This document shows positions 4,125-45,634 of a stretch of 64,000 nt of DNA, in pieces. Position numbers and translations under genes: made by a program. A model generated the notes under the pieces. The model did not search any database. It was not told the origin of the DNA and saw nothing but the letters and a program-made list of their open reading frames with translations. The number at the start of each line of letters is the position of its first letter. The stretch's first letter is position 1. The stretch covers positions 1 through 64,000 of the IMG/VR virus record IMGVR_UViG_3300043313_000168. The stretch is one strand, 5' to 3'. The stretch is from a virus.

Positions 4125-4450
4125 TTTTTCTTGTTCCCGAACAGGTTGCGAAGCATGTTCGCGCCGTCGGTGTCGTCGGCGCCGAGAGCTTTGCGCTCAG
4201 CCTCGCACGCCTCGCAATGGCATTCAGGGTTGACGGCGACCTTGGCGGCGGTGCTGTCATAGGTGAGGGCGATGCCGCGGCAGATCATCTCGCGGACTTC
4301 GTCGGGCTGGTTAAAGCCGGGGGCGAACATCGCCATCGGGGCAGCGTCCTCGTTGAACAGGATCACAACTGCGCCGTGGGCAGAGGGGACACGCTCCTTA
4401 AAGAACTCAACCATGTCTCTCTGGAATTGGACTGGGTCCTGATTTTTCAT
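4121..4450 (-). CDS. Unknown 109-aa protein with a C-terminal CxCxxC motif
   Basis: The sequence begins MKNQDPVQFQRDMVEFFKER and has a short hydrophobic strand (GAVVILF), then HCEACEAERKALGADD and a basic tail (GNKKK). The cysteines (C-H-C-E-A-C) might bind metal. It overlaps its neighbours by 4 bases at both ends, which suggests translational coupling with the helicase gene. No family recognised. Confidence 0.75.
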   Translation of the reverse strand: MKNQDPVQFQRDMVEFFKERVPSAHGAVVILFNEDAAPMAMFAPGFNQPDEVREMICRGIALTYDSTAAKVAVNPECHCEACEAERKALGADDTDGANMLRNLFGNKKK

Positions 4451-6033
4451 GCTGCTGCCTGCGTTGCGTTAGAGAGCATTTCCAGTAGGGCTTCCTGCAC
4501 TGACTGCTTAGCCCTTAACATTGTGTAAATTTTCCGTTCAACAGAAGTTGATTGGAGGTGGATGATTTGCTGCTTGTGTTTCTGCCCGACCCTGGTGATG
4601 CGGGCATTGGCTTGGTCATAGATGTCCAGTGAAGTGATCGGCATATACCAGATGATGGTGTCGGCGGCGGTGAGTGTGATGCCGTGGGCCAGACACGCCG
4701 GGTGCGCGAGCAGCACCTTGTACTTGTCAGTGTTCTGGAAGGCGTTAAAAATCCGCGAACGCTCGCCTTGGCTCACTTGTCCGTGAACGGTGGCGAACTC
4801 GATGCCTGCCCCGGTGAGCACGTCCGCCACGCCCCCCAGTGTGTGGATGAAGGGCACGAACACCAGCACCTTGCGCTCGTTCTCGGCGATCAGGTCGACC
4901 ATCACGTCATGGCGGGGTTTCGCGTCTGTCGGGATCGCGATGGTCGAGCCGTTGGCGTCCTTGCCGCCATAGACCCAGCCGCCGCTGACCTGCAGGAGCT
5001 TGCCCATGGCGACCGCCGCGTTCACCGCTGTCACCTTCTGGCCGGCGATGTCCGCTTGGAACAGCTTCGCCAACTGCGTGTAGATTTTGTTCTGCGTCGG
5101 GGTGACAGGCACGTCGATCGTGCGGCTGACCACCTCCGGCAACTCCACGACCGCGTCGAGTGAATAGCGCACGTTCGGCTGCAACATCCTGAAAGCGGTC
5201 TCGATGGCGTCGTCCTTGGGAACCCACTTGAAGTTGTTCACCTTGCGCATCAGCATTTCCTGCGCCTGCCGGAAATACTTCGGGACGGTGTGGGGAGTGA
5301 CAATCTTGGCCTGCGCCCACACGTCTGTCGGGTCATTGGGCATGGGGCGGCCAGTCATCCCCCAGCACACTTTAAAGCGTTCGCTGAACTTGCGCATCGC
5401 CTTGGAGCGGTCGGAGTTGTTGCGGTAGACGGCTAGCTCGTCGAGGACCAGCACGTCGATGTCTGTGCGCAAGAGCAGTTCTGCGGCGACGGTCTTGAGC
5501 CCGTCATGGTTGATCACGAATATCTCGGCGTCACCCCTTAACCTTTCGAGGCGCTTCTGCTTCGAGCCGTGGAGCACTGCCACCTTGCGGTGCGGCAGGG
5601 TCGCGAACACCTCGGCGGCCCACACAAAGTCGAGTGTGCTCAGGGTCGCGACCACCAGCAGCTTGCCGACCAGCCCCTCGGTGTGGAGATAATCCCACGC
5701 CCACAGCGCCGCCTTCGTCTTGCCGGTGCCCATGGAGTTCAAGATGTAGGCGCGCTGCGCTGTCGTCATCAAGTCGCAGGTCGAGCGCTGCACGGCGAAC
5801 GGCTTGCCGCCGCGCCAGTCGTAATAGCAGAGCATCGGGTTCGGTAGCTCGTAGCCCAGATGCCTCAGCGCGATGGTCGAGTGCAGGTCGTGCGGCACCA
5901 CCAGTTGCTGTTCGCCAAGGTGCGCCAGATTGTGCGCTCCTGGAAACATGGTGATGGTCCCGCCCGTCCGCGGCACGACCAGTGCGCGGTTCGCTCGGGA
6001 GACAATCACATGACCCTTGGTGTTAGCTAACAT
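4447..6033 (-). CDS. SNF2-like superfamily 2 DNA helicase/translocase
   Basis: A 528-residue protein with ordered SF2 motifs: Walker A MGTGKT at 101-106, motif II DELA at 199-202 in place of the usual DEAH, motif III GMTGRP near 226-231, motif V around AHPACLAHGITLTAADTI, and motif VI QANARITRVGQ near 485. This pattern belongs to the SNF2/Rad54-type ATPases common in phage replication modules, where they translocate on double-stranded DNA during replication or recombination. AGAGAAGTTCG precedes the start. The stop overlaps the next ATG, consistent with one polycistronic message. Confidence 0.92.
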   Translation of the reverse strand: MLANTKGHVIVSRANRALVVPRTGGTITMFPGAHNLAHLGEQQLVVPHDLHSTIALRHLGYELPNPMLCYYDWRGGKPFAVQRSTCDLMTTAQRAYILNSMGTGKTKAALWAWDYLHTEGLVGKLLVVATLSTLDFVWAAEVFATLPHRKVAVLHGSKQKRLERLRGDAEIFVINHDGLKTVAAELLLRTDIDVLVLDELAVYRNNSDRSKAMRKFSERFKVCWGMTGRPMPNDPTDVWAQAKIVTPHTVPKYFRQAQEMLMRKVNNFKWVPKDDAIETAFRMLQPNVRYSLDAVVELPEVVSRTIDVPVTPTQNKIYTQLAKLFQADIAGQKVTAVNAAVAMGKLLQVSGGWVYGGKDANGSTIAIPTDAKPRHDVMVDLIAENERKVLVFVPFIHTLGGVADVLTGAGIEFATVHGQVSQGERSRIFNAFQNTDKYKVLLAHPACLAHGITLTAADTIIWYMPITSLDIYDQANARITRVGQKHKQQIIHLQSTSVERKIYTMLRAKQSVQEALLEMLSNATQAAA

Positions 6034-10608: not shown

Positions 10609-11047
10609 CTGCCTGCTCCCTGTTGGCGTAGGCGAGCTTCATAAGCTCCACGATCTCTGCGGACAGATAGAGGATTTCCATCCCCTCGCTCTGCAGCGCT
10701 ACAGCCGTGCGGTGCTCGGCCTGCGCGCCGTTGGACTTCTCCCAACCCGGCAGGAGAACAATCATGTCCGCGTGCAGGCAGATGAAGTCCATGTCCTCGG
10801 AGAGTGCTTGTCGGAGAGAGAAGCCGTGCTTGGCCTTGGCTTCTGCGATTGATCCAGCGGCGTTGCCTGCTGAGATGTTGACGCCGCCGTGGCGCTCGAT
10901 GTCCTTCTCGGCGGGGTTGAACACCGTGTGGCCGTTCTGGCGAAGGACGTGGGCGACGGCGTGGAATGTGGGGAAGTTGAACTCTGGGTAGCCCTGCATG
11001 GGGCCGGCGAGATAGATGTCACGTGGCTTCGTTGGCTGCGGGATCAT
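10598..11047 (-). CDS. DUF4406 protein (nucleoside 2-deoxyribosyltransferase-like fold)
   Basis: ATG at 11047 follows GGAGAAGCGAA and overlaps the polymerase stop. The protein opens with RDIYLAGPMQGYPEFNFPTF, the signature of DUF4406, then has NPAEKD, a MDFICLHADMIVLLPGW strand and EHRTAVALQSEGMEI, matching the nucleoside deoxyribosyltransferase-like fold. A role in nucleotide salvage or in making a modified nucleotide is possible. Catalysis by this family is poorly established. Confidence 0.85.
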   Translation of the reverse strand: MIPQPTKPRDIYLAGPMQGYPEFNFPTFHAVAHVLRQNGHTVFNPAEKDIERHGGVNISAGNAAGSIAEAKAKHGFSLRQALSEDMDFICLHADMIVLLPGWEKSNGAQAEHRTAVALQSEGMEILYLSAEIVELMKLAYANREQADAA

Positions 11048-13104
11048 TTCGCTTCTCCATATGACTGACCGGTGCCGATGTCGGCGGTCAGCGGGATGTC
11101 CTTGCCCCATGACGGAGGGCGAACCATTTCCGAATGTATCAGTTGCTTGGCGAAGTCAAGTTCACTGTTCGGGACGATAAACACAAGTTCGTCATGCGCC
11201 TGCAAAACAAAGCGGTACGCCTCGGGATGCGGTCGCAGCTTCCCCCTATCGCGTATGCGCAGCGCGGCGTTCATGACGATGATGCGCGCCAGCGCTTGCA
11301 CGATGTTCTCTAGCATCTTCGCACCATACATGCGGTGCCAGAACTTGCCGTAGCGATACTTAAACTCTTGCCGCCACTGTTCGCGGCCGTTCTTGTCTGT
11401 CGTCTTGATGTTGTGTGACTGAGGCTCCGCGTACTCCATGGTCATCCCACTGGGCAGGAGTATCTTGCCGAAGCTGATGGTGACAGGACCGAAGTGCACA
11501 GGCGGCATGTGTTGCGTCGACCACTGCGTGGCCACGATCTGGTTCAGTCTGTTCCAGCCAGCGGGTATCTGGAAGTAGCGCTTTCGATATGCGTCCACGC
11601 CTTTGTCGCCGATGGCGCGCGTGTAGATTTGACTGATGTCCACCTGCTGGGCGCGTGCGCTCCTGACCACCATGGTGTCGAAGTTGTCCTTGCCGCAGCC
11701 ATAGCCAAGGCCCAAAATCCCGGTCTTGCCGATAAAGCCCATGATCTCGTCGACCGTGCCCGTGAGCTTGCGGTTGACGGGTCGACCGAAGATGTCGCCA
11801 GCGAGTTTGTTGTAAGGGTCCAGCTTCTTGCCGAACTCCTCCATGAGCGCCGTGCAGCCGCATATCCATCCGACCAGTCGCGCCTCGATCTGTCCCAAGT
11901 CGCACGTGACGACGGTGTGGCCGGGCGGCGCCTTCAGTGACAGGCGCAGCTTGCTCTTGCCCTTCGATCCGCGGACCGTGGGCATGTTCTGCATGTTCAT
12001 CTTCCAGTCGCCGCTCAGACGGTGCGTGTGAGCTCCGCCGTAGCGCAACGGGATCGGCATCAGGGAGAACAATTTACCGGGACGGTAATTCGGGTCGAAG
12101 GCGCGCGCCATTTCCTCCTGTGCGATCTGGCGCAGCATGGGACGATAGGCGGCGAAGCTGTATACCTTCTTCCAGTTCAACTCGCCGATGGCCATCAGGG
12201 TCTTGGAGCGTGTCTCTTCAAGCGTGCTCTTGAGACCGATGCGCGCTGCCGCGAGTGCTGCCACTGCCGGGTCGTCGCTGTCGATCAGGCTCGCCATGAA
12301 CTCGTCGGTCTTGGAGAACGCTGGCGTCTGCTTCGGGTTGCCGTCCGCGTCCTTGGCTGTCGGGCTGTCCTTTAGCTCCACTTCCACGCCAAGCGCTTCC
12401 AGCGCCGCCTTGAACTTCGCTGTCGACATGATCACGGACTTGTCCACACTGCCGGCGTCCACGATCAGCTGCTCTTTCGCAGCGACCACGTCAGCGATGT
12501 GCGCACGCAGCAACTCAGTATCCACCTGAAAGCGCGGTTCCACGCAACACCGGAGGACAAGGTCCATCAGGCGGCGCTCACTCCACGGCATGCGGGGGTA
12601 GAGGTGCTTGAACACGCCTTCGCAGAGACGGTTGTCCTGCAGCGAGTATTCTTGATAGCTCGCCCACAGGTCAGGGTTGGACTTGATGGTGGCGCGCGTC
12701 ATCCCTATGACGTTGTTGATGGCGTCTCCTTTGCGGCCCAGGTTGAGGTGGTCAGCTATGCTGGCGAGGTTGAAGCGCACCAGTTCATGCCCCATGAGGG
12801 CGCGCGCCATCGCCATCGCGTCAAGCATGGTGTCGGGCACAAAGCCGTAGACCCATGAGAGGATGGCGTTGTCGAACAGGGCGTTGAATGTGACGGTGGT
12901 TGTGGTCTCGGGCTTGAAGCCGGAAATGAACTTGGCGAAGTCTGGTCCGTCAACGATAAAGTGATCACCAAAATTGACCTGCGCAGCGCAGAGGATCGTC
13001 TCGTATCGTGGGTCCAGAATGTATTGGGCAGGCGTCATCTTTCGCAGGGAATAGTCCTGCGAGTAAAACGTCTCGAAGTCGAGGATGAGAACGTCGTTGG
13101 ACAT
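11044..13104 (-). CDS. Family A DNA polymerase with 3'-5' exonuclease
   Basis: 686 residues from ATG at 13104 (GGAGCCTTG ahead). The proofreading domain shows ExoI LDFETF (Asp9, Glu11), ExoII NALFD (74-78) and ExoIII YSLQD (153-157). The polymerase part has motif A TCDLGQIEARLVG near 400, a helix with KTGILGLGYGCGKDNFD, and motif C QAHDELVF near 635-642. The length fits a phage replicative PolA without the 5' nuclease domain. Dispersed palindrome 7 lies in N-Y-R-P-G-K at about residue 340. It is the main replication enzyme of this genome. Confidence 0.95.
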   Translation of the reverse strand: MSNDVLILDFETFYSQDYSLRKMTPAQYILDPRYETILCAAQVNFGDHFIVDGPDFAKFISGFKPETTTTVTFNALFDNAILSWVYGFVPDTMLDAMAMARALMGHELVRFNLASIADHLNLGRKGDAINNVIGMTRATIKSNPDLWASYQEYSLQDNRLCEGVFKHLYPRMPWSERRLMDLVLRCCVEPRFQVDTELLRAHIADVVAAKEQLIVDAGSVDKSVIMSTAKFKAALEALGVEVELKDSPTAKDADGNPKQTPAFSKTDEFMASLIDSDDPAVAALAAARIGLKSTLEETRSKTLMAIGELNWKKVYSFAAYRPMLRQIAQEEMARAFDPNYRPGKLFSLMPIPLRYGGAHTHRLSGDWKMNMQNMPTVRGSKGKSKLRLSLKAPPGHTVVTCDLGQIEARLVGWICGCTALMEEFGKKLDPYNKLAGDIFGRPVNRKLTGTVDEIMGFIGKTGILGLGYGCGKDNFDTMVVRSARAQQVDISQIYTRAIGDKGVDAYRKRYFQIPAGWNRLNQIVATQWSTQHMPPVHFGPVTISFGKILLPSGMTMEYAEPQSHNIKTTDKNGREQWRQEFKYRYGKFWHRMYGAKMLENIVQALARIIVMNAALRIRDRGKLRPHPEAYRFVLQAHDELVFIVPNSELDFAKQLIHSEMVRPPSWGKDIPLTADIGTGQSYGEAK
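12074..12088. repeat. Dispersed palindrome 7, TTACCG-GGA-CGGTAA
   Basis: Exact copy within the DNA polymerase gene, read in the N-Y-R-P-G-K phase. Confidence 0.95.
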
Positions 13105-13111
13105 CAAGGCT

Positions 13112-23210: not shown

Positions 23211-23477
23211 CTAGTAGCGCTCGCGGCACAGAGTGCAGTTGTGGGCGAGCAGCCCGTTGTCCTCGCAGAAGCGCTGGTTGAGGGGACAATTGGACCTCTT
23301 CGTGGGCGGGGTCTCCCGCTTGCCGAACGAGGTGTTGAGCTTGCGGAACCCACTGTCGAACTGGGCGAGGGTCACGTGCTTGCCGTAGGCAAGGCGGTGC
23401 TCGAACTGCTGAGCCTTGTGGAACTCCTCGGCTGCGACGGGGTCGGCTGCGTACAACTTACGGGTGAAGGATGTCAT
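23211..23477 (-). CDS. Unknown 88-aa Cys-rich protein, first gene of the left arm
   Basis: CTGAGGAGCAGCCAA precedes ATG at 23477. The body is basic and helical (EEFHKAQQFEHRLAYGKHVT) and the end has NCPLNQRFCEDNGLLAHNCT then LCRERY, four cysteines in a zinc-like spacing. As the first gene after the divergence it should be among the first expressed leftward. Confidence 0.7.
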   Translation of the reverse strand: MTSFTRKLYAADPVAAEEFHKAQQFEHRLAYGKHVTLAQFDSGFRKLNTSFGKRETPPTKRSNCPLNQRFCEDNGLLAHNCTLCRERY

Positions 23478-23507
23478 TTGGCTGCTCCTCAGCTGGCCGT
23501 TGAAATG

Positions 23508-23572
23508 CCCACGTCCCAGAGCGGGGCGCGGCGCAAAATCGCCGCGTCGCGGCGCCCCATGAGCGTGGGAAG
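23508..23572 (-). promoter_or_regulatory. Long GC-rich leader hairpin of the left operon
   Basis: CCCACG with GCGGGGCGC on one side and GGCGCCCC with CGTGGG on the other pair across a GC-rich centre, giving a long imperfect stem-loop. It lies 30-95 bases upstream of the 23211 gene start. It may stabilise or attenuate the leftward message. Confidence 0.5.
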
Positions 23573-23591
23573 GAGGAGCGAATTTCACCTT

Positions 23592-23660
23592 ATTAGACGT
23601 GGCTGGGTAATTAGCTTGTTCCCTGTAATTAGACATATTAGCTGTTATTAGCTGTATTAA
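23592..23660 (-). repeat. Left cluster of six CTAAT-type repeats
   Basis: ATTAG begins at 23592, 23610, 23628, 23637 and 23647, with a variant ATTAA at 23656. Read on the minus strand these are CTAAT(A/T), several as CAGCTAATA spaced about 10 bp and others as GTCTAAT. They point in the direction of leftward transcription. Confidence 0.8.
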
Positions 23661-23845
23661 CTGTGGATTTTAGCGAGGCTTTCCACCTCGTTCATAATGG
23701 AACTCGTTGTAGGGTTAAGGAAGCGTTAACACGCAATATAATTTCGCAAACCTTTCCACCTTCAGAGCTTTTCAGGCTCGTTCTTGTTTTGTTCGGTATA
23801 TGTAGTTGCGAGAAAACCGGTCTCCCGTGCCGACCCGAATTGCAG

Positions 23846-23957
23846 CTAATCACGGAAAGGTGACAAGGTCGAGCGAATATGAACAAGGTCGCCACTGACG
23901 TGCAGCAACCACAGCTAATACAGCTAATAGCAGCTAATTAAGCCCATCATGTCTAAT
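23846..23957 (+). repeat. Right cluster of five CTAAT-type repeats
   Basis: CTAAT occurs at 23846, 23915, 23924, 23934 and 23953, mostly as CAGCTAAT at 9-10 bp spacing, with one TGTCTAATA as in the left cluster. They point rightward, so the two clusters form a mirror arrangement around about 23,780. Confidence 0.8.
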
Positions 23958-24171
23958 AACCGCCCAATCTGGTAAGGTGATACCTTGGTTTATAGCTACG
24001 GCTCTAGCTATCACGAACCCGTGATAAGGTGGTGTCTTTGTACCTTTCCACATCCACATGATCGCACTTCCCAGGCCGCCTCACGTGCAGGCAACGCGGG
24101 CGCGAGGGCCGCCCCGATGCGGCGGTTGCATCGGCCAAATCGGTCGACAACCCCAAGCTGAGGAGCTTACC

Positions 24172-24345
24172 ATGAACGTCAAAGGCGAAGTCAAAGGCGA
24201 TACGCTGGTTCTGACCATCGACATCTCGAAGGCAGCGCGAGACGCCGCCAAGGACAGCAAGTCTGGCAAGTCCAAGATACTGGCCACGACATCGGGCTTC
24301 ACTGGGTTCGGTGATGTCAAGGTCAGCCTGAACGCCACGATCTAG
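24172..24345 (+). CDS. Unknown 57-aa protein, first gene of the right arm
   Basis: GAGGAGCTTACC precedes ATG at 24172. MNVKGEVKGDTLVLTIDISK, then TSGFTGFGDVKVSLNATI reads as a small beta-rich domain with a lysine/serine loop. A strong hairpin follows its stop. It may be an abundant early protein. No family recognised. Confidence 0.72.
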   Translation: MNVKGEVKGDTLVLTIDISKAARDAAKDSKSGKSKILATTSGFTGFGDVKVSLNATI

Positions 24346-25529: not shown

Positions 25530-26045
25530 ATGCGCATCCGACATTTTCTCGAAGAGTATCTCGACTGGTTCACGTTCCCAGCGCTTGCGGTCTGGCTGCT
25601 TTACGCGTCGTGGTCGGCACTGAGCATGAAGTGGCTGGCGTACGCGGTGGTCGGATGGTTCGTCGGCACGTTCGCCGAGTACGTGATCCACCGCTGGGTG
25701 TTGCACGGACCATGGTGGATGAGCATCCATCAGCGGCACCACAAGGCGCCGCTGGAGAACACGCGCTTCCCGCTCTGGCAAATCCCGACCTACTTCCTGA
25801 TTATCTACTTCCTCTGCTACATGCTCACGCACCCGCTCGACTTCGCGTTCTTCGAGGGCTGGGTCGTCTGGTACATCTCGTTCTTCAGCGTGCACTGGAT
25901 GCAGCACCACGCGCCGTGGGTCTTCCCCGCGTTCGCGATCCGGCACAACGCTCACCACAAAGTGACCGTGTGCAACTACGGCGTTACGCTCGATTTGTGG
26001 GATCGCGTGTTCGGTACGTACCGCGCAGCTAATTATCGCCGTTGA
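25530..26045 (+). CDS. Fatty acid hydroxylase/sterol desaturase-like membrane protein
   Basis: 171 residues with four hydrophobic stretches and the His boxes of the superfamily: EYVIHRWVLH (His54, His59), HQRHH (67-71), HWMQHH (122-127) and RHNAHH (139-143). These bind a di-iron centre that hydroxylates or desaturates lipids in the inner membrane. The length suits the short fatty-acid-hydroxylase branch. In a phage this is probably an auxiliary metabolic gene that alters host membrane lipid during infection or blocks superinfection. It stands alone between two hairpin-rich gaps, suggesting its own promoter. Confidence 0.87.
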   Translation: MRIRHFLEEYLDWFTFPALAVWLLYASWSALSMKWLAYAVVGWFVGTFAEYVIHRWVLHGPWWMSIHQRHHKAPLENTRFPLWQIPTYFLIIYFLCYMLTHPLDFAFFEGWVVWYISFFSVHWMQHHAPWVFPAFAIRHNAHHKVTVCNYGVTLDLWDRVFGTYRAANYRR

Positions 26046-26047: not shown

Positions 26048-26102
26048 GGTGTGAAGGTTTCATAAAGGTTCCGCTAACAAATTTCCGCCAGGGGAGCGTC
26101 GC

Positions 26103-26672
26103 ATGAATGCCATCGCACAGATCGAAGCGGTCCACCCAGCCCGTCTCGCTGCCGACATCGCAGTGTCCCTCGCGGACGAAGGTGTACCGGTGCGGGCGAT
26201 CGCGCGAAGTATTCGTCTCCCAGGTGAGGACGTCTACGAGCTCCTGAAAGCAGCGATCGACGCCGGGCGCCTGATCGAACTTCCAAAGGACGACTGGCCA
26301 CCAGGAGCGCGCAACAACCGCTCACAAGCCGAGAAGAGAGTTCTCTCCTACTCCGACGAAACACTTCACCTAGCCTGTGCCAACCGTTTTAAGCTGACAC
26401 GCCTCCAAGCCGTAGTGTTCGTAGCGATGCTCCGCCGCGGCGAGGCCTCCAAGACCTACCTACACAACGCCATCGAGAATAACCGCGACGACAACGCGGA
26501 CCCCACCGACCAGAAGATGGTCGACGTCGTGGTCTGCCACATCCGCCGCAAGCTCAAAGACAACAACGTCAATATCGACACGATCTGGGGCGTGGGATAC
26601 GCCATGAGGGTTGACGCGCGCAATCACGCGCTCGCCGTCATGGCCGACCACATCGCAGGCACAGGTGTTTGA
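26103..26672 (+). CDS. Transcription regulator with OmpR/PhoB-type winged helix, no receiver
   Basis: 189 residues. The N-terminal 60 residues hold a possible HTH (GVPVRAIARSIRLPGEDVYE). The C-terminal part has LTRLQAVVFVAMLRRGEAS, then KMVDVVVCHIRRKLKDNNVN and IDTIWGVGYAMRV, the recognition helix and wing of response-regulator effector domains. There is no phospho-receiver, so activity probably depends on its level. CCAGGGGAGCGTCGC precedes the ATG. It may drive late genes or act on host CtrA-like targets; both are inference. Confidence 0.82.
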   Translation: MNAIAQIEAVHPARLAADIAVSLADEGVPVRAIARSIRLPGEDVYELLKAAIDAGRLIELPKDDWPPGARNNRSQAEKRVLSYSDETLHLACANRFKLTRLQAVVFVAMLRRGEASKTYLHNAIENNRDDNADPTDQKMVDVVVCHIRRKLKDNNVNIDTIWGVGYAMRVDARNHALAVMADHIAGTGV

Positions 26673-26673
26673 C

Positions 26674-27042
26674 ATGGTCTCTCCGATCATCGACGAAGAG
26701 AAGATGCTGAAGTTCTTCGACGCCAAGGTCTCCGCGGCCGGCGCGATGGACATCCAGTCGGGGGCTTTCCTCCTGCTCGCTGACGCATTCGACCGCAGGG
26801 TGACACGCGAGGACCTCAAGACGTACCTGTCGGCAGCTTTGCAGGTTTATGACACGGTCGGTCGGCTTTCGATCGTCTCGAACATGCGCATGTTCCTGCG
26901 CGAGAAGGGCGAGATCAGCGACGCCGACCTGATGGTCACCGAGCAGAGCCTGACGCGCATGGTCACTGGCCACGTCGCCGACTGCATCAAGCTCGCCGAG
27001 GTGCTGCGCCAGTGCGCCACGGACGAGGACAAAATCCAATGA
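26674..27042 (+). CDS. Unknown 122-aa helical protein
   Basis: ATG at 26674 starts MVSPIIDEEKMLKFFDAKVS. The body is helical (DLKTYLSAALQVYDTVGRLS, MRMFLREKGEISDADLMVTE). It overlaps the next gene with ATGA. Its place before a terminase-small-like gene suggests packaging, without proof. Confidence 0.68.
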   Translation: MVSPIIDEEKMLKFFDAKVSAAGAMDIQSGAFLLLADAFDRRVTREDLKTYLSAALQVYDTVGRLSIVSNMRMFLREKGEISDADLMVTEQSLTRMVTGHVADCIKLAEVLRQCATDEDKIQ

Positions 27043-27770
27043 GCGACGAGCACGTCGAGACAGGGCTCCTCGAAGCTGCGGCGGAGATTACCGCCGCGGT
27101 AAACGACGAGCCCGTCGGCCTGACCAAGGACGGCATCGACGCGCTGAAGGCGATGGTCGCCCTCCCTGCCGACTTCGGGCCGCCGCAGATGGTGGCGCTC
27201 GCGCGTGACGTCGGCATGAACATCTACCCGCTGGGTACAGTGCTCTCCAACCACAGGCTGACGAATGCGCAATACGAGTTCCTCCAAACGTACAACGAGT
27301 TCTTCCGCAACTCGGTCATCCAGCAAGCCAACGAGTGGCAAGGTCTCAAGAGCACGCAAGACAGGCTCCGCGCCGAAGCCGCCGCCGCGCTCGAAGAGAA
27401 GCTCCCTATCCTCGCAAGTCGCATGGGCAACCAAGGCGAAAAACTCGCTGACGCTGTTGAAGCAGCTAAACTTTTTGCAAAGATCGCTGGCGTTGACGGA
27501 GATGCCCCCGGGGTTAGGCGCGGAGGCGAGGGCTTTACGATTACTATTGATCTTGGCGCCGACACGCGTGTTGTCGTCGGAACTGCGCCGGCTCCGGCGT
27601 CGAGCGCAGATGCGGATCATCAGCGCCCGCTACGGACGGTCGGCGAAGGGCAAGGCCAACAATCGCCGCTACCACAGCAGCCCGAAGGGCAAGTGGTCGG
27701 CCGAGAAGTACGACAAGTCGCCCCTCGGCAGATCGCGGCGCCGACGGGCATCGCAATCCCCGAAGGGTAA
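27039..27770 (+). CDS. Candidate small terminase subunit
   Basis: 243 residues from ATG at 27039. Residues 1-160 are helical. DFGPPQMVALARDVGMNIYP could be a DNA-binding helix pair, and the Ala/Glu-rich coiled stretch (LRAEAAAALEEKLPILASRM) with AVEAAKLFAKIAG resembles the oligomerisation part of small terminases. The Gln/Pro-rich last 50 residues overlap another frame with a clearer repeat and may not be under selection. Two genes upstream of the large terminase is a usual place. Dispersed palindrome 12 is at codons 17-22 (I-T-A-A-V-N). Confidence 0.55.
   Translation: MSDEHVETGLLEAAAEITAAVNDEPVGLTKDGIDALKAMVALPADFGPPQMVALARDVGMNIYPLGTVLSNHRLTNAQYEFLQTYNEFFRNSVIQQANEWQGLKSTQDRLRAEAAAALEEKLPILASRMGNQGEKLADAVEAAKLFAKIAGVDGDAPGVRRGGEGFTITIDLGADTRVVVGTAPAPASSADADHQRPLRTVGEGQGQQSPLPQQPEGQVVGREVRQVAPRQIAAPTGIAIPEG
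27088..27102. repeat. Dispersed palindrome 12, TTACCG-CCG-CGGTAA
   Basis: Exact copy near the start of the 27039 gene, read as I-T-A-A-V-N. Confidence 0.95.
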
Positions 27771-27954
27771 GTTAAGGCATTTCCTGTATAGACGTTCGCC
27801 GAAGGGCATCGAAACAAATTGGAGACACGACAATGGGCCAACCCGCAAAAACTCCCGAAGACAAGCTCTCGGACGCAAACGAGATCATCAAGCAGAAGAA
27901 CGCCGAAATTCTGCAGCAGCGGAAGCAAATCGTCGCTTTGACCAAATCGGATGA
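27610..27954 (+). CDS. SPKGK 13-residue tandem-repeat protein overlapping two genes
   Basis: In the +1 frame relative to the 27039 gene, ATG at 27610 opens a basic sequence of exact 13-residue units: RYGRSAKGKANNR, RYHSSPKGKWSAE, KYDKSPLGRSRRR, RASQSPKGKLRHF, LYRRSPKGIETNW, RHDNGPTRKNSRR. S-P-K-G-K sits at positions 5-9 of each unit, degrading in the last. A 39-bp period held in one frame is strong evidence of coding. The first part overlaps the end of the 27039 gene and the last 40 codons overlap the phosphoesterase gene. It could be a separate gene or be reached by a frameshift. The Lys/Arg repeats suggest DNA or RNA binding. Confidence 0.6.
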   Translation: MRIISARYGRSAKGKANNRRYHSSPKGKWSAEKYDKSPLGRSRRRRASQSPKGKLRHFLYRRSPKGIETNWRHDNGPTRKNSRRQALGRKRDHQAEERRNSAAAEANRRFDQIG

Positions 27955-28942
27955 AACTGCGCGCACCGTGCGCGAGAACATCTACGGGATCGCGGGCTAC
28001 GACCCAGAACCACCTGAGTGGCTCGTGAAGGAAGGCATCACGGGTCACCGAGGCACGCCTGCCACCATCTGGTCCGACTGGCACTACGGCGAGGTTGTCC
28101 GCAAGTCGGAAGTCGGTGGCGTCAACGAGTTCTCCAAAGACATCGCCGCGCGCCGCGTCAAGAAGCTGGTGACCACCACCATCGACCTCGCGCACAACCA
28201 CATGGGTAAGGCCAAGGTGAAATACCCGGGGGTTGTGGTTGCGCTCGGGGGCGACATGCTCGGCGGCGACATCCACGAAGAGTTGATGAAGACCAACGAT
28301 CGCACCACGCAGCAGTCGATCGAGGACCTGATCGACCTGATCGCCGGCGGGCTCGACACCATGGCCACCCACTTCGGCAACGTGTTCGTGCCGTGCGTCG
28401 TCGGCAACCACGGCCGCTCCACCAAGAAGATGCAGATGAAGCAGCGCGTGCACACCTCGCACGAGTGGAACGTCTACTGCGGCGTGGCGCGCTACTTCAA
28501 AAAGAACAAGCACATCCAGTTCTCAATCCCGGAGGAAGCCGATGCACAGTTCAATATCTACGGTCATCGCTATATGCTCACTCACGGTGACAGCCTGGGC
28601 GTCAAGGGTGGCGATGGCATCATTGGTGCTCTCGGCCCGATCATGCGAGGCACTCTCAAGACGCATAGATCGGAGGCTCAGATCGACCGTGAGTTCGACA
28701 CACTTCTTATCGGACACTGGCACCAGTACCTCACGCTCCCCGGCCTCATCTGCAACAACAGCCTTAAGGGCTATGATGAGTACGCGCGTCTGGTCCTCCG
28801 AGCACCATTTTCTCGCCCTTCGCAAGCTCTCTGGTTTACCCACCCGGAGCACGGCATCACTGCACATTGGCAAGTGTATCTCGAAGGCCAACTTGATCGT
28901 AAAAAGCTCGACAAGTCGCAGTGGGTTAGCTTCCCCCAATGA
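27833..28942 (+). CDS. Calcineurin-like metallophosphoesterase
   Basis: 369 residues. After a coiled-coil start (residues 10-40) come the metal-binding motifs in order: WSDWHYGE (Asp82, His84), ALGGDMLGGD (Asp141), CVVGNHGR (Asn192, His193), YMLTHGDSLG and LIGHWHQY near 292-299. This is a dinuclear-metal phosphoesterase of the size often found beside phage terminases. It may trim DNA ends or act as a nuclease or phosphatase during packaging. The stop overlaps the terminase ATG. Confidence 0.9.
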   Translation: MGQPAKTPEDKLSDANEIIKQKNAEILQQRKQIVALTKSDETARTVRENIYGIAGYDPEPPEWLVKEGITGHRGTPATIWSDWHYGEVVRKSEVGGVNEFSKDIAARRVKKLVTTTIDLAHNHMGKAKVKYPGVVVALGGDMLGGDIHEELMKTNDRTTQQSIEDLIDLIAGGLDTMATHFGNVFVPCVVGNHGRSTKKMQMKQRVHTSHEWNVYCGVARYFKKNKHIQFSIPEEADAQFNIYGHRYMLTHGDSLGVKGGDGIIGALGPIMRGTLKTHRSEAQIDREFDTLLIGHWHQYLTLPGLICNNSLKGYDEYARLVLRAPFSRPSQALWFTHPEHGITAHWQVYLEGQLDRKKLDKSQWVSFPQ

Positions 28943-30396
28943 GCAAGCTCCACTACGCAGCACCCCCTACGTGTGCCCGCTTCATGAAGAGCGAGGCGTT
29001 TGGTCGGCTGATCGCTGGTCCAGTCGGTAGCGGCAAGACCACCGCTGCCGTCATCGAGCTCCTGCGCCGCTCGTGCGCGCAGGCCCGCGGCACCGACGGC
29101 GTGCGGCATACCCGCCACGCCATCGTCCGGCAGACGCTGAAGCAGCTGAAGGACACCGTGCTGAAGGACTGTCAGAACTGGCTGAAGGGCCTCGGGCAGT
29201 GGAAGGTGTCGGAGAACACGTTCATCGTCGACTTCGACGACGTGCGCTCCGAATGGATTTTCATCCCGCTCGAAAACGAAGAGGACCAAGCGCGGCTGCT
29301 GTCGATGCAGCTGACCGGCGCGTGGCTGTCGGAGTGCATCGAGATGGACATCAGCGTCCTTGCGCCGCTCACCGGCCGTCTCGGCCGTTACCCGTCCGGC
29401 GTCGAGGGCGTCTGCACCTGGAACGGCTGGATCGCCGACACCAACTTCCCCACCGAGATGACGCCGTGGCACTCGTTCATGGAGACGCCGCCGCCCGAGG
29501 TGCAGATATTCAAGCAGCCGTCGGGCATGGCCGATAACGCCGAGAACCTGAACTGGCTGCGCCAGAACGAGACCACCATCGCCTTGCCGATCGACCACCC
29601 CGCGCGCGTCGCGCAGGGGCGGAAGTATTACGAGCGCTTCGTCGAGATGTACGGCGAGGAGAGCGACTGGGTGAAGCGCTACGTCTACGCGCAGTACGGC
29701 GACGACCCGTCCGGCGCCGCGGTGTTCAAGAACTCATTCAAGTCCAACTTCCACATCGTGCCCGACACCATGCTGATCCCGGGCTACCCGCTGCTGATCG
29801 GCCAGGACTTCGGGCGCAACCCATGGAGCCTGATCTGTCAGATGGATCATATGGGCCGGCTGCTCGTGCACCAGGAAGTGCCGGCGACGAACGTCGGCTT
29901 GGAGAAGCACGTCAACGAGAAGCTCAAGCCGCTGCTGATGTCCGACCGCTATCTCGGCTACAAGGTGTGTGCCATCGGCGACCCGAGTGGTGTGGCGAAA
30001 GGTAACATCGCCGAGGAGAGTTGCTTCGACGCGCTCTCACGCCTCGGCATCCCGAACTTCCCGGCCCCGACCAACGACATCGAGCCACGCCTGCGCGCGG
30101 TCGAGAGCCTGCTCGGGCAGCAGACCAACGGCGGGCCGGCGCTGATGATCTCCGCCAAGGGCTGTCCGTGGCTGTGCCGCGCCATGAGCGGCGGCTATCG
30201 CTTCATGAAGATGAAAACCGGCGCGCTGAAGGTGGTGCCCGACAAAACCGACAAAGAAGGGTTCTCGCATGTCGCCGACGATCTTCAGTACGTGGCTCTG
30301 GTTGTCCACGGTGGCGTCGTTCCAGAGATCAGCCGTCGCCTACGCCCACGCGTTAAGCGTAGCGGTTCGAGCGTCTCTGCCGCGGGGTGGACTTAA
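28939..30396 (+). CDS. Terminase large subunit
   Basis: 485 residues. Walker A is GPVGSGKT (27-34), a Walker-B-like strand ends in AWLSECIEM near 132-140, and the RNase H-like nuclease has LLIGQDFGRNPWSL and VCAIGDPSGVAKGN. The layout and size fit the podovirus/P22-like group of DNA-packaging motors. The start overlaps the phosphoesterase stop. The stop overlaps a minus-strand gene by 4 bases, making a convergent pair. Confidence 0.95.
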   Translation: MSKLHYAAPPTCARFMKSEAFGRLIAGPVGSGKTTAAVIELLRRSCAQARGTDGVRHTRHAIVRQTLKQLKDTVLKDCQNWLKGLGQWKVSENTFIVDFDDVRSEWIFIPLENEEDQARLLSMQLTGAWLSECIEMDISVLAPLTGRLGRYPSGVEGVCTWNGWIADTNFPTEMTPWHSFMETPPPEVQIFKQPSGMADNAENLNWLRQNETTIALPIDHPARVAQGRKYYERFVEMYGEESDWVKRYVYAQYGDDPSGAAVFKNSFKSNFHIVPDTMLIPGYPLLIGQDFGRNPWSLICQMDHMGRLLVHQEVPATNVGLEKHVNEKLKPLLMSDRYLGYKVCAIGDPSGVAKGNIAEESCFDALSRLGIPNFPAPTNDIEPRLRAVESLLGQQTNGGPALMISAKGCPWLCRAMSGGYRFMKMKTGALKVVPDKTDKEGFSHVADDLQYVALVVHGGVVPEISRRLRPRVKRSGSSVSAAGWT

Positions 30397-34549: not shown

Positions 34550-36526
34550 ATGCTCTGTCTGAATATGATCGTGAAGAACGAGAGCGCGCGCATACTGCGA
34601 GCTCTCGACGCCGCCAAGCCATTCATCTCCACCTACGCCATCCTCGATACGGGCTCGACCGATAACACGGTCGAGCTCATTCGTGCGTGGGGCGTGGCCA
34701 ACGACATCAAGGGCACCGTCGGGGCCGGCGAGTTCAAGGACTTCTCCCAGGCCCGCAATGACGCGATCGACCTCGCGAAGCGCTGGTGCTGTGAGCACCA
34801 CTTCACGCACCTGCTCCTGCAGGATGCCGACATGCAGATCGTCGGCGATCCGAAGGCGTTCAACGGCTTGCAGGGTGAATGTTATGAGATGCTGCAGACC
34901 GGCGGCTCGGTGACCTATAGCAACGCCCGCGTGCTCGCGATCTGGTCGCTCGCCCGGTACGTCGGCAGCACGCACGAGTATCTTGACGTCGCACCCACCG
35001 CGATGATCGAAGGCGCCCGGTTCGACGACCATGCCGACGGCGCCAATCGGGTCAACAAGTTCGAGCGTGACGTCGAACTGTTACTGGGTGACGTTGCAAA
35101 GGACCCGAACAACCCGCGCGCCTACTTCTACCTCGGCAACAGCTATCGCGACGCCGGCCAGCCGGCGAAAGCGGAAGAGGCCTACCGCAAGCGTATGGCG
35201 CTCGGCGGCTGGGATGAAGAGCTCTACGCCACCCAGTGCAGCATCGCCACCTGCCGCAAGGACCAGGGCGACGACGCCGGTTTCGTTGTTGAGATGTTGA
35301 AGGCCCACGAGCTCCGCCCGCAGCGCGCGGAGCCACTCTACGATCTCGCTCATCACTTTCGCGAGAGGGGACAGAACCACAGTGCGATCGTGTTCGCTGA
35401 ACGCGGTCTCGCGATACCACGACCAGACGACCGCCTCTTTGTGAACGACTATGTCTACAGCCACGGGCTGCGCGAGGAGATGTCGATAGCCGGCTACTAT
35501 AGTGAGAGCACGCGAGAGAAAGCCTTCAAGCTCACCAATGCTTTAGCGCTCGACCGCAAGTACGATGGTCCACGTAATCTCGCGCGCGCCAACATGGTCT
35601 ACTATCTGCAGCCCCTTGATCGCTTCGCCCCGTCGGTTGTCCACAGCCGAATTGCAATCGAAGACCGTATCAATACGGGATACGTTGCAATGAACCCGTC
35701 AGTGTGCGAGACACCGTCTGGTTCTCTTGAGTGCCTAGTGCGGACGGTCAACTACAAGATCAACGAGCACGGTCAGTACATGATCGGCCCGTTGGGATGT
35801 CAGGACGCTCCCATCATCACCGAAAACCATCTTGTGCGGCTGTCGCCGCTGCTTCGCATTGACGAAGCCATCCCTGTCAAGTGGGATCGCCCGCCGGCGC
35901 AATTCCCGCTGGTGATCGGCCTCGAAGACATGCGCCTGTTCTGGAAGAAGGGCGAGCGCCGCTTTGTGGCATGTGTGCGCGAGCAGAGCGTGCGCGGCGC
36001 TCCTGAACAGTGGGAAGGTGTCCTCAATCGACGCATGCTCGACGGTGTCGTCGCTATCGTGGAGAACGCTGTTCGGATCAGCGATCCCGACGCGCACTGC
36101 GAGAAGAACTGGGCGCCGATCCGGATCGGCCCCGATTACAAATACGTCTATCGCCTCGACGTCATGCGCACGCTCAACGGTAACCTCGTGAAGACTGAGC
36201 GCGACTTCGAGTGCGGCACCATCAGCGGCAGCAGTCAGTGGATCGAGTTTCAAGGCGGCTATCTCGCGGTGGTCCATGAAGCTGTCGGCCACCCGGTCAC
36301 CGGCAAGCGCATCTACCAGCACCGCTTTGCATGGACGACGGCGGGCTTCGGCGACATGAAGCTGACCCTGCCGTTCACGTTCCAGGATACGCAGATCGAG
36401 TTCTGCGCTGGCCTCGCGCGGCACGGCTACTCCAAACTGATTATGTCCTACGGCGTACGCGACGAGGAGGCGTGGCTCGCCACGATCTCCCACGCTGACG
36501 TCGCCGCAATGCTGAGGCTTAAGTGA
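34550..36526 (+). CDS. Multidomain glycosyltransferase: GT2, TPR and beta-propeller-like domain
   Basis: 658 residues. The N-terminus is a family 2 glycosyltransferase: MIVKNES at 6-12, AILDTGSTDNT ending at residue 40, and a LLLQDADMQ metal site near 90-97. Residues 175-270 are TPR-like helices (NPRAYFYLGNSYRDAGQPAK). The last 300 residues are strand-rich, with GLEDMRLFW, VVHEAVGHPVTG and LIMSYGVRDEEAWLATIS, resembling a five-bladed propeller of the GH130 type. It may build and regulate glycans on the adjacent collagen-like proteins or the capsid. Confidence 0.85.
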   Translation: MLCLNMIVKNESARILRALDAAKPFISTYAILDTGSTDNTVELIRAWGVANDIKGTVGAGEFKDFSQARNDAIDLAKRWCCEHHFTHLLLQDADMQIVGDPKAFNGLQGECYEMLQTGGSVTYSNARVLAIWSLARYVGSTHEYLDVAPTAMIEGARFDDHADGANRVNKFERDVELLLGDVAKDPNNPRAYFYLGNSYRDAGQPAKAEEAYRKRMALGGWDEELYATQCSIATCRKDQGDDAGFVVEMLKAHELRPQRAEPLYDLAHHFRERGQNHSAIVFAERGLAIPRPDDRLFVNDYVYSHGLREEMSIAGYYSESTREKAFKLTNALALDRKYDGPRNLARANMVYYLQPLDRFAPSVVHSRIAIEDRINTGYVAMNPSVCETPSGSLECLVRTVNYKINEHGQYMIGPLGCQDAPIITENHLVRLSPLLRIDEAIPVKWDRPPAQFPLVIGLEDMRLFWKKGERRFVACVREQSVRGAPEQWEGVLNRRMLDGVVAIVENAVRISDPDAHCEKNWAPIRIGPDYKYVYRLDVMRTLNGNLVKTERDFECGTISGSSQWIEFQGGYLAVVHEAVGHPVTGKRIYQHRFAWTTAGFGDMKLTLPFTFQDTQIEFCAGLARHGYSKLIMSYGVRDEEAWLATISHADVAAMLRLK

Positions 36527-37212
36527 TGAAGGTCAAGCTCGTCACCGGCTACGTGCCGATCCCAAACCATCCGCGATCCGCGGCTGTGTATGGTGCGCTG
36601 GGAGAGAAGCTCGGCGGCGTCCCCGTTCCGAAGAAGGCCTACTACGATCAGCTGCAGAACCTCTGGCTCTACAAGCGCGTGAAGGCGATGGACTTCATCC
36701 CCGCGATCTCCGAGGGCGACAATCCGGCGAAGAACACGCTGGCCTATCACGCTGTCAACCACGAGAAGACAACGTGGCTTGCGCAGGCGGCGGCCGACGA
36801 TCCCGTGCCGGATGTCTTCGTCTGGGTCGACTACGGCATTTTCAATCTGCCGGGCGTCAATAACAAAGCGATCTTCGAGTTCATGTCGAGCCTCGACGAT
36901 AGGGCGATCTACGCGCCCGGCTGTTGGGACCCGGCCCCCGTCGAAGCCAGCTATCCGTGCTGGCGCTTCTGCGGCTCTGTCCTTGCTGTCCCCCGCCGGT
37001 TCATCACTGAGCTCGATCACGCTGTGCGTGAGGAGGCCCGCCGCCACATCAGCGCGACGAAGAACGTCGAGTGGGAAGTCAACACGTGGGCGCGCGTCGA
37101 AGCCCGCCGTAAATGGAAGATGCCGTGGTGCTGGTACAAGGCGGATCACAACGTCTCCATGTTCACCAACGTCCCCACGTTAGGAAACGCAAATGCTGTT
37201 CTCGCAGTTTAA
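36523..37212 (+). CDS. HtrL/YibB-like putative glycosyltransferase
   Basis: 229 residues, ATG overlapping the previous stop. KVKLVTGYVPIPNHPRSAAV, YDQLQNLWLYKRVKAMDFI, DVFVWVDYGIFNLPGVNNKA and a C-terminal NVEWEVNTWARVEARRKWKM follow the order of HtrL/YibB and WlaTC-type proteins, thought to be glycosyltransferases. The VWVDYGI strand would carry the nucleotide-sugar Asp. It is placed within a sugar-transfer cassette. Confidence 0.65.
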   Translation: MMKVKLVTGYVPIPNHPRSAAVYGALGEKLGGVPVPKKAYYDQLQNLWLYKRVKAMDFIPAISEGDNPAKNTLAYHAVNHEKTTWLAQAAADDPVPDVFVWVDYGIFNLPGVNNKAIFEFMSSLDDRAIYAPGCWDPAPVEASYPCWRFCGSVLAVPRRFITELDHAVREEARRHISATKNVEWEVNTWARVEARRKWKMPWCWYKADHNVSMFTNVPTLGNANAVLAV

Positions 37213-38399: not shown

Positions 38400-38627
38400 A
38401 TGGCTATGGCCAATTTCACCAAGAAGTCCGAGCACAACGTCGAGTTCGCCAAGGGCGGCAAGACCCATATGTTCGGTGAGCAGGCCGCGGACCCGCAGAA
38501 GCCGGCCACGACCAGCCCGACCGAGAGCCCGGCTCCCGGCGCCAAGTTCGCCTCGGGCGGCTCTCACAAGATGTTTGGGTACGCAGGCTCTCAGCCGGCC
38601 GAGGCCGGTAAGACCAGCGCACGCTGA
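38400..38627 (+). CDS. Unknown 75-aa virion-region protein
   Basis: MAMANFTKKSEHNVEFAKGG, then THMFGEQAADPQ, a Pro/Thr linker and FASGGSHKMFGYAGSQPAEA: the phrase F-A-x-GG-x3-MFG occurs twice, so the protein is an internal duplication. Such small polar proteins sit beside capsid genes in several podophages. Role unknown. Confidence 0.68.
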   Translation: MAMANFTKKSEHNVEFAKGGKTHMFGEQAADPQKPATTSPTESPAPGAKFASGGSHKMFGYAGSQPAEAGKTSAR

Positions 38628-39311: not shown

Positions 39312-40433
39312 ATGGTAGATACAATCGAAGTCACGCGCGACCAGCGCCCCATGGACCACAATCCCGTCGACACCAGTGTCGCCCTCCCGAAGCACGTGCA
39401 GGAAGCTGCGCGCGCCGCCGAGGCGTTGCATGGCCGACTGTATCCAGCTGAGGCCGAGCCAGAGCCGGCGCCAGACAAAACACAAGCTGCGCAAGCGGAG
39501 CCAGAGCCGGCTCAGCAGCACCCTGCCCAGGGGGATCAGCAGGTCCAGCCACAAATTACCGCCACGGTAAATCAAAACACCGATCCGTTCGTCGAAGCGG
39601 CCACTCCGTCCGAGTTGAAGGACAGCGTCTGGGCCCAGCGCTATAACTCGATGCGCGGTCGCTGGGAGGCACAGTCCCGAGAAATTGGGCAACTTCAACA
39701 GCTTGTCAACGATCTCGGGCAGGAACTGCGCGCCACCCAGCAGGCCATTGCGGCTCCGCAGGCTCAGGCCCAGACCCCCCGCGATCACGAAAAGTTGATC
39801 ACCGATAAGGACCGGGAGACCTTTGGCGACGACCTGATCGACGTTGCCCGCAAGGCCGCGCGCGAGGCGATTGCCCCCGATCTGGACGCCCTCCGCAACG
39901 AGAACGCAAACCTGAATAAGCGAGTAACTACAACGGCTCAGGGGGAGTTGCGCGCCTCGCTCGCCGCTGCCGTGCCGAACTGGATCAACATCAATCGCGA
40001 CGCTCGTTTCCACGGATGGCTGCGTTTACGAAATCCTTACACTGGTCAGGTACGAGGAGAACTGTTGAACGCCGCATACCGGGCAGCGAACGCTCCCCAG
40101 GTGATCGCGACGTTCAAGGACTTCCTTAGTGAGGTCCGGGCCACGGGCGGAGAAGTCCCGGGTCAAAGGCAAGAGCAGCAGCAGGCCCCCGCGGGTCAGC
40201 AAGCTCCTCATGAGCCGGCGATCCAGTTGGACACTCTCGCTGCTCCTGGAAGGGCAAGGCCGGCAGGTGGCGACAGCCAAGTGCCCGCAGACAAGCCGAT
40301 CTACAGCCGCGCTCAAATCTCGAACTTCTATCGCGATGTGCGTCGAAACGCTTACGCCGGCCGAGAGGCCGACAAGAACCGGATCGAGGCAGACATCATC
40401 GCAGCGCAGTCCGAGGGACGGGTCCGCGGTTAA
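39312..40433 (+). CDS. Scaffolding-like protein
   Basis: 373 residues, highly helical and charged, rich in Ala, Glu and Gln, immediately upstream of the coat gene, as scaffolds are. A Pro/Glu/Gln-rich N-terminal 100 residues precede a coiled part (WEAQSREIGQLQQLVNDLGQ). The basic C-terminal end (SRAQISNFYRDVRRNAYAGR) would bind coat. Dispersed palindrome 14 lies in the disordered part (Q-I-T-A-T-V-N-Q). AAAGGAAAGACCAAACC precedes the ATG. Confidence 0.8.
   Translation: MVDTIEVTRDQRPMDHNPVDTSVALPKHVQEAARAAEALHGRLYPAEAEPEPAPDKTQAAQAEPEPAQQHPAQGDQQVQPQITATVNQNTDPFVEAATPSELKDSVWAQRYNSMRGRWEAQSREIGQLQQLVNDLGQELRATQQAIAAPQAQAQTPRDHEKLITDKDRETFGDDLIDVARKAAREAIAPDLDALRNENANLNKRVTTTAQGELRASLAAAVPNWININRDARFHGWLRLRNPYTGQVRGELLNAAYRAANAPQVIATFKDFLSEVRATGGEVPGQRQEQQQAPAGQQAPHEPAIQLDTLAAPGRARPAGGDSQVPADKPIYSRAQISNFYRDVRRNAYAGREADKNRIEADIIAAQSEGRVRG
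39556..39570. repeat. Dispersed palindrome 14, TTACCG-CCA-CGGTAA
   Basis: Exact copy in the disordered N-terminal part of the scaffold gene, read as I-T-A-T-V-N. Confidence 0.95.
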
Positions 40434-40461
40434 CCGGGGGTCTGCATTCGCCAGTAACGGA

Positions 40462-40496
40462 GAGACCCCTTCCAGAAGCAACAAGTAAGGGGTCTC
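40462..40496 (+). promoter_or_regulatory. Leader hairpin enclosing the coat gene ribosome binding site
   Basis: GAGACCCCTT (40462-40471) pairs perfectly with AAGGGGTCTC (40487-40496) over a 15-base loop. The AAGGGG that must serve as the ribosome site of the coat gene (ATG at 40501) is in the 3' arm. It could stabilise the mRNA 5' end and time or moderate translation. Confidence 0.78.
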
Positions 40497-40500
40497 AGCC

Positions 40501-41511
40501 ATGTCCATTCCCAGTTCAGGTTTTCCGGGCGCAACGTCCGGCTCCACGCCAGCAATCTACCCTACCGGCTCTTCGACGAACGGCCTGCAGTCCACCGGGT
40601 TCATCCCCGAGATTTGGTCTGGCAAGCTGGTCGAGAAGTTCTACGCGTCCACCGTCCTCGCGGCGATCTCGAACACCGACTACGAAGGTGAGATCAAGAA
40701 CAAGGGCGACCGCGTCAAAATCCGCACCAAGCCCACCATCACGATCCGCGACTACAAGTCCGACGGCTTGCTTGGCCTTGACCGCCCGACCGGCGGCAGC
40801 GTCGAGCTCTACATCGGCAACGGCAAGTACTTCTCGCTGATCCTCGATGACGTCATGGAAATTCAGAGCGATCTGAACAACCTGTCGATGTGGTCGGACG
40901 ACGCTGCTCAGCAGCTGAAGATTACCGTCGACACGGACGTGCTCGGCGGCATCGTCAACCAGATGGCTGCTGCCAACCGTGGTATCGCGGCCGGCGTCAT
41001 CACCGGCGCCATCAACCTCGGCATCAAGAGCACGCCCCTCTCGGTCGTGTCCAAGAACCCGGGCGTGGGTGACGTCGAACTCCTGGACGTGTTGATGCGC
41101 ATGGGTCAGGTGCTCGACGAGCAGAACATTCCGGAAGTCGGCCGCTGGGTCGTCATGCCGGCGTGGGCTGGCCGTATGATCAAGCAGTCGGAGCTCCGTC
41201 AGGCTTACCTGTCCGGTGACAGCGTCTCGATGCTGCGCAACGGCCGGCTCGGCATGGTGGATCGGTTCACGATCTACATCTCGAACCTCCTGCCGAACAA
41301 CAGCACCGACAGCACCAACTTCGCTGCGGGCGAGTGGCCGATCTATGCGGGCCATGCGCACGGTCTGACGTTCGCGTCGCAGATCAGCAAGGTCGAGACC
41401 CTGCGGTCGGAACTGACCTTCGGCCAAATCCTGCGCGGTCTGCAGGTCTACGGCTATCAGGTCGTCGACGGTAAGGCCCTGGTCCAGGCTCAGGTCACGC
41501 CGAACAGCTAA
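40501..41511 (+). CDS. Major capsid (coat) protein
   Basis: 336 residues after the scaffold gene. Hallmarks: STNGLQSTGFIPEIWSGKLV, FYASTVLAAISNTDYEGEIK, DRVKIRTKPTITIRDYKSDG and a C-terminal SELTFGQILRGLQVYGYQVV. The pattern matches P22-coat-like/HK97-fold major capsid proteins. Its own leader hairpin and a downstream terminator suggest it is also made from a short, abundant message. Confidence 0.93.
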   Translation: MSIPSSGFPGATSGSTPAIYPTGSSTNGLQSTGFIPEIWSGKLVEKFYASTVLAAISNTDYEGEIKNKGDRVKIRTKPTITIRDYKSDGLLGLDRPTGGSVELYIGNGKYFSLILDDVMEIQSDLNNLSMWSDDAAQQLKITVDTDVLGGIVNQMAAANRGIAAGVITGAINLGIKSTPLSVVSKNPGVGDVELLDVLMRMGQVLDEQNIPEVGRWVVMPAWAGRMIKQSELRQAYLSGDSVSMLRNGRLGMVDRFTIYISNLLPNNSTDSTNFAAGEWPIYAGHAHGLTFASQISKVETLRSELTFGQILRGLQVYGYQVVDGKALVQAQVTPNS

Positions 41512-41534
41512 CCGCTGCTCTAAACGAATGCTTA

Positions 41535-41570
41535 AGACCCCGGTGGCAATGCTGCCGGGGTCTTTCGTTT
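41535..41570 (+). terminator. Rho-independent terminator after the coat gene
   Basis: AGACCCCGG (41535-41543) pairs with CCGGGGTCT (41555-41563) over 11 bases, followed by TTCGTTT. It is the clearest intrinsic terminator in the window and would limit read-through into the neck genes. Confidence 0.82.
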
Positions 41571-41582
41571 ATGGAGCCCCTG

Positions 41583-42630: not shown

Positions 42631-42631
<1 letters not shown>
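41993..42631 (+). CDS. Neck or tail adaptor protein
   Basis: 212 residues overlapping both neighbours. The first half mixes helix and strand (SSSWTEIIDLTVVPDTNEYD). The second is helical (PEWVLKQWHTAIKEGMLGNM, SYSDPKGALYHLSRFRKGIT), like podovirus tail adaptor proteins. Assigned largely from position. Confidence 0.68.

Positions 42632-45634
<3,003 letters not shown>

Follow-up and report, generated by a model that had tools for sequence, protein, structure and literature searches.

A candidate two-sided iteron origin with a phage-specific word in the divergent early region of an uncultured podophage-like genome

Introduction

The alpha protein of phage P4, a primase-helicase of a different helicase family from the phage enzyme described here, reads short type I iterons through its C-terminal winged helix at two separated places, ori and crr. 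Iteron origins are also read by the C-terminal domain of the SaPI Rep helicases, and binding seems to involve two hexamers (PMC7581432). PICI origins always comprise two iteron sets around an AT-rich region, an organization that has been called unique to PICIs (PMC6092414). Cch, a DUF927 protein of SCCmec, is related to SaPIbov1 Rep (PMC7581432). Cch2 comes from another helicase family, and the direct repeats of its putative origin are bound by its C-terminal domain (PMC7581432); the iterons of these staphylococcal cassette elements are three 5-nt AAGTG words. Repeated short sites of another kind are found in alphaproteobacterial phages (vB_BsubS-Delta), in which clusters of CtrA sites (consensus TTAA-N7-TTAA) lie ahead of a small gene in the large gap that separates two divergent modules (PMC9437464).

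Here, we describe a locus from a virus record of 66,977 bases, analysed over a 64,000-nucleotide stretch (the window). In common with the SaPI/PICI origins and Rep (SaPIbov1 Rep, 8TCH), it combines a DUF927-class helicase with two iteron sets around an AT-rich stretch, and it shares with them an allelic diversity that is seen in Pri-Rep between elements; reading of the iterons by the C-terminal domain, as in Rep (PMC7581432, PMC6092414), is proposed for this phage as well. It differs in that the genome is a full podophage-like genome of ~67 kb and not a satellite, in that the primase is fused to the helicase, and in that the origin, directly 3′ of rep in SaPIs and PICIs, would here be ~24 kb away from the initiator gene (if the genome is circular), within a divergent promoter region. 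SCCmec Cch (5DGK) is the best profile and fold match to the phage helicase. The locus resembles the vB_BsubS-Delta gap in its setting and repeated short sites, but its word is phage-specific and a single TTAA-N7-TTAA box is present.

Repeat arrays in the divergent gap

A gap of 694 bp (23478-24171) separates a leftward from a rightward gene (Table 1). In the gene map the leftward arm is a replication arm (PolA, helicase, exonuclease and ATPase), while the rightward arm encodes an exonuclease, terminase, portal/head-tail adaptor, capsid and internal virion protein. Two ORFs within the gap, of 66 and 67 aa, have no match among the relatives described below.

Eleven 7-bp units of the forms AGCTAAT, GTCTAAT and AGTTAAT lie within 366 bp of this gap, out of 13 in the whole window; the minus strand carries six of them (23592-23662) and the plus strand the other five (23844-23957). 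When the window was shuffled 200 times with dinucleotide content kept, the densest 370 bp held three units, and shuffling the local 693 bp 2,000 times gave a mean of 0.26 units and a maximum of three. The two facing repeat clusters reported in a first-pass annotation are therefore borne out, as are its counts of six and five units, its GTCTAAT variant in both clusters (two left, one right) and its AT-rich centre, the arrays occupying the lowest-GC spot of the window. The CTAAT(A/T) type that it gave for the units does not strictly cover the one at 23656, which reads AGTTAAT, and its spacing of 9-10 bp applies inside two sub-clusters only (9, 10, 9 and 9, 10 bp), the remaining gaps being 18, 18, 69, 19 and 188 bp. 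The 30-nt arms at 23637-23666 and 23909-23938 are 93% complementary. An exact search for CAGCTAATACAGCTAATA in viral contigs gave 31 matches, mostly in AT-rich contigs, none of which was seen to have the two-sided layout; several resemble coding repeats of Thr-Ala-Asn, and the matches were set aside.

Table 1. Positions of the array units, neighbouring elements and genes in the window.
Feature	Position	Strand	Remarks
Left iteron array	23591..23664	-	Six units, CAGYTAATA / GTCTAATTA type; 35% GC
GTCTAAT unit starts	23592, 23628	-	
AGCTAAT unit starts	23610, 23637, 23647	-	
AGTTAAT unit start	23656	-	
Right iteron array	23842..23958	+	Five units, CAGCTAATA / GTCTAATAA type
AGCTAAT unit starts	23844, 23913, 23922, 23932	+	
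GTCTAAT unit start	23951	+	
Core between arrays	23665..23841	.	46% GC (window 62%); proposed melting region
TTAA-N7-TTAA box	23715..23729	.	Core; form of the host CtrA box, possibly a host CtrA site
GTTCTTGTTTTGTTC core box	23780..23794	+	
AAGGTGATACCTT palindrome	23974..23986	.	AAGGT(G/A) words constant across relatives (12 of 13 regions)
GC-rich hairpin-forming elements, CCGACGCGGC-like	23523-23558, 24113-24140		In leaders; 11 of 13 relatives
First leftward gene	23211..23477	-	MTSFTRKLYAAD..., Cys-rich C-terminus; head of replication arm
First rightward gene	24172..24345	+	57 aa; 77-82% identity in nearest relatives
DNA helicase	4447..6033	-	Replication arm
DNA polymerase (PolA type)	11044..13107	-	Replication arm
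Sole further AGCTAAT copy in the 67-kb record	26027..26033	+	76 bp upstream of regulator gene start
Two-domain DNA-binding regulator	26103..26672	+	N-terminal HTH, C-terminal OmpR/PhoB-type winged helix (PF00486)

The layout is kept in relatives while the word changes

Relatives were found via the small rightward gene, the terminase and the regulator. At the corresponding point of divergence, at least 18 of them carry two clusters of one short word around an AT-rich gap. Across the 19 phages tabulated there is one word of 7-10 bp in two clusters, with a unit period of 8-10 bp (12 bp in some phages) and an intervening gap of mostly 140-350 bp. The top 7-mer occurs 5-12 times per gap compared with shuffle maxima of 3-8 (13 gaps, this phage included); it exceeds the shuffle maximum in ten of the 13 and is equal to it or just below in L008, L054 and L069. 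The word is AGCTAAT here, TGTCTAA in L009 and L010, CCAATTA in L005, GGACATTT in L006, L058 and L066, AATGGTGG in L067, GGCATTT in L008, AAGTGTC in L056 and TTGACTA in L054, and further words exist. Such changes are found among phages with 75-83% identical terminases, and each word is nearly confined to its locus, being almost missing from the rest of its own genome.

The mirror orientation noted in the first-pass annotation is perfect in this phage (11 of 11 units outward, p=0.009) but is not kept in the relatives, where 126 of 150 sites are concordant compared with 117 expected at random. Outward orientation was thus rejected as a conserved rule, which argues against a purely promoter-directed design.

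Other elements of the gaps are constant. AAGGTG/AAGGTA words are shared by 12 of the 13 gap regions, unlike the iteron word, and AGTTCCAT is common to seven of them; the same ribosome-binding site flanks the gap on both sides, and the core box GWTYNTGTTTTGTTC is present in some phages, with a single copy close to the lowest-GC spot in six of the genomes scanned. The presence of constant words and changing arrays in the same gaps indicates that a constant control region overlaps a variable array.

Nine more distant helicase-bearing phages, eight of them with little or no regulator match, were also scanned, and a clear array at the lowest-GC spot was found in two only (G043 and G046). In the cultured Rhizobium phage RHph_TM3_14A the AT-rich gap near 19.8 kb contains AT-rich repeats and no clear word array, and this phage was rejected as a cultured case of the array. 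Separately, a contig binned as Candidatus Hydrogenedentes (L240) has the phage regulator together with a TGGCGAAT array resembling the one in L107, and is probably a phage contig in the bin.

Word similarity correlates with the C-terminal domain of a primase-helicase

Outside the window, a minus-strand ORF that is truncated by the contig end (65955-66941 of the record) encodes the C-terminal part of a primase-helicase; with the array at 23.6 kb, this position gives the separation quoted above. In relatives the protein has ~1,030 aa and contains DUF927 (PF06048). Profile searches matched 5DGK, the SCCmec Cch protein, at E=7e-18 and 8TCH at E=3e-16; the latter is a pathogenicity island protein whose entry title names it the SaPIBov1 replication initiator. 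An AEP PrimPol profile was matched weakly, and NCBIfam gave a partial match to Cch1. A model of the C-terminal 280 aa (mean pLDDT 82) ends in a winged-helix-like order of strands and helices, and 5DGK and 8TCH were the sole Foldseek matches to it at E<=0.001. Judged by profile and predicted fold, the phage encodes a PrimPol-DUF927 primase-helicase with SCCmec Cch and SaPIbov1 Rep as its closest solved relatives. The enzyme falls in the DUF927 helicase class related to SaPI Rep, and self-loading is predicted.

Across 20 phages, the similarity of the words is correlated with the identity of the primase-helicase C-terminal domain (Mantel r=0.29, p=0.001). The association persisted in partial Mantel tests given TerL (p=0.006), the regulator (p=0.001), the protein's own helicase domain (p=0.008) or the genome-wide mean (p=0.001), and the signal peaks at residues 940-1040. 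Four structural genes (36523-37212, 41571-41993, 38400-38627 and 48042-48341) also reach r~0.3 with the word. Removal of four GGACATTT phages gave p=0.04, and removal of G015 as well gave p=0.10. The signal owes much to the GGACATTT group and a single close pair, and the Mantel test may err on the liberal side. In these sequence comparisons the word appears to track the C-terminal domain and not the regulator, and with some structural genes correlating equally this is support, not proof, for the domain as its reader.

Several observations concern the enzyme family itself. The helicase is present in ~158 contigs. The product of RHph_TM3_14A 42239-45322 (L426:26240-29323) is annotated as 'putative integrase protein', yet it contains DUF927 (PF06048, E=1e-20) and belongs to the primase-helicase family; the same product name is used in TM27A, TM27B and TM29. 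The primase-helicase frame has one in-frame TAG in G017 (39884-42880; L250) and three in-frame TGA in G025 (26077-29160; L261), which could result from stop reassignment, decay or assembly error.

A proposed origin of replication

We favour the interpretation that the arrays form a two-sided iteron origin like those of SaPIs and PICIs, placed in the divergent early region and distant from its initiator gene, and put the probability of this at roughly two in three. The arrays, their two-sided layout with a phage-specific word and the homology of the initiator are direct observations; function is predicted from sequence, modelling and analogy. In the proposed sequence of events, the C-terminal winged-helix domain of the primase-helicase would bind each iteron and two oligomers would form, one per array. 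The oligomers would open the AT-rich DNA that separates the arrays and, being self-loading helicases, would load outward; the fused primase would prime both forks, and firing would be bidirectional. The anatomy and initiator class match those of SaPI/PICI origins while the position departs, and we therefore describe the locus as one that would work like such an origin, without filing it as a member. GC skew is uninformative at this site because it is confounded with gene direction, which switches at the same place.

The site may additionally affect the promoters, since the spot is a divergent control region. A further-reaching proposal, which we regard as tentative and somewhat doubtful, is that the arrays serve as a joint switch and barcode: the C-terminal domain of the initiator would read the phage-specific word, fire the origin and gate both divergent early promoters; word classes would correspond to incompatibility groups among co-infecting relatives, and word and domain would co-evolve by modular exchange.

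If the origin interpretation is correct, the two-sided iteron replicon with a primase-helicase like Cch and SaPI Rep extends from satellites to full phages, which bears on the source from which satellites obtained this replicon type. The ~20 natural pairs of initiator and word would also make the specificity code of the winged-helix domain directly testable.

Alternative explanations

The first-pass annotation had offered operator or activator sites alongside an iteron-type origin. The conserved layout, the changing word, the primase-helicase of SaPI-Rep/Cch type and the covariation favour the origin and disfavour the operators. In the operator explanation, the OmpR/CtrA-like regulator would bind the direct repeats head to tail and control two divergent early promoters. 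No conserved transcription factor was found besides the regulator, which lacks a receiver domain and occurs in dozens of related phages; PF00486 is present in 38 of 38 aligned relatives, and OmpR-family domains are the top structural matches of the regulator. The site is a divergent promoter region, the units of this phage face perfectly outward and a further AGCTAAT is found a short way upstream of the regulator gene. However, the word is not tracked by regulator identity (Mantel p=0.13; p=0.39 given the C-terminal domain), and the recognition helix is nearly constant while the words change. In an alignment to PhoB made by eye, the residue equivalent to R201 is His in L058 and Lys in L006 and L066, although all three have the same word. 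The spacing is 8, 9-10 or 12 bp depending on the phage, with no fixed 10-11 bp, and the relatives do not keep the outward orientation. The regulator was rejected as the reader of the array words on its failed covariation and constant recognition helix, and we consider the operator explanation unlikely. Given that helix, the constant AAGGT(G/A) words might be the sites of the regulator. Searches of relatives with the regulator sequence alone, or with a C-terminal alignment, gave nothing usable.

Somewhat less probable still is that the arrays are sites for another, non-homologous phage protein, for example a repressor or a factor for superinfection exclusion, the specificity of which diversifies between phages. 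Repressor/operator immunity groups typically show such fast word change among close relatives, and several small early genes are variable. The gene map nevertheless shows no conserved candidate besides the regulator and the primase-helicase, and a two-sided layout around an AT-rich minimum is unusual for operators. Lysogeny is unsupported: the tyrosine integrase PF00589 was not found in 12 genomes in which controls were detected.

It is very improbable that the arrays are decoys or landing sites for CtrA, LexA or another host regulator. The GTTC-N7-GTTC pattern is the alphaproteobacterial LexA box, and it is matched perfectly by the core box in this phage only, its relatives having GTTT or GATC, so that LexA control was rejected. 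TTAA-N7-TTAA occurs once in the core and not in the arrays of this phage, and in only five of the 13 gap regions. Clusters of CtrA sites in divergent gaps are known from other alphaproteobacterial phages (PMC9437464), but the array word is neither TTAA nor GTTC, and it differs between closely related phages. A chance or compositional artefact is scarcely credible, for although the GC content of the window is lowest in the gap, the local shuffles fall far short of the observed count and the layout recurs with other words in relatives.

Phage family and neighbouring genes

The phages constitute a large family of uncultured podophages that are probably alphaproteobacterial. A temperate prophage was rejected, with no tyrosine integrase in the 12 genomes and no TerL, portal or capsid of this phage found in the 20 kb examined of the regulator-bearing bacterial contigs (L239 and L241). 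These contigs, from the alphaproteobacterial genomes of Microvirga solisilvae and Enterovirga aerilata, encode regulator homologues with 36-37% identity, which hint at the host group. Upstream of the regulator, the phage carries a gene with a fatty acid hydroxylase domain (PF04116; 25530-26045), which is unusual phage cargo.
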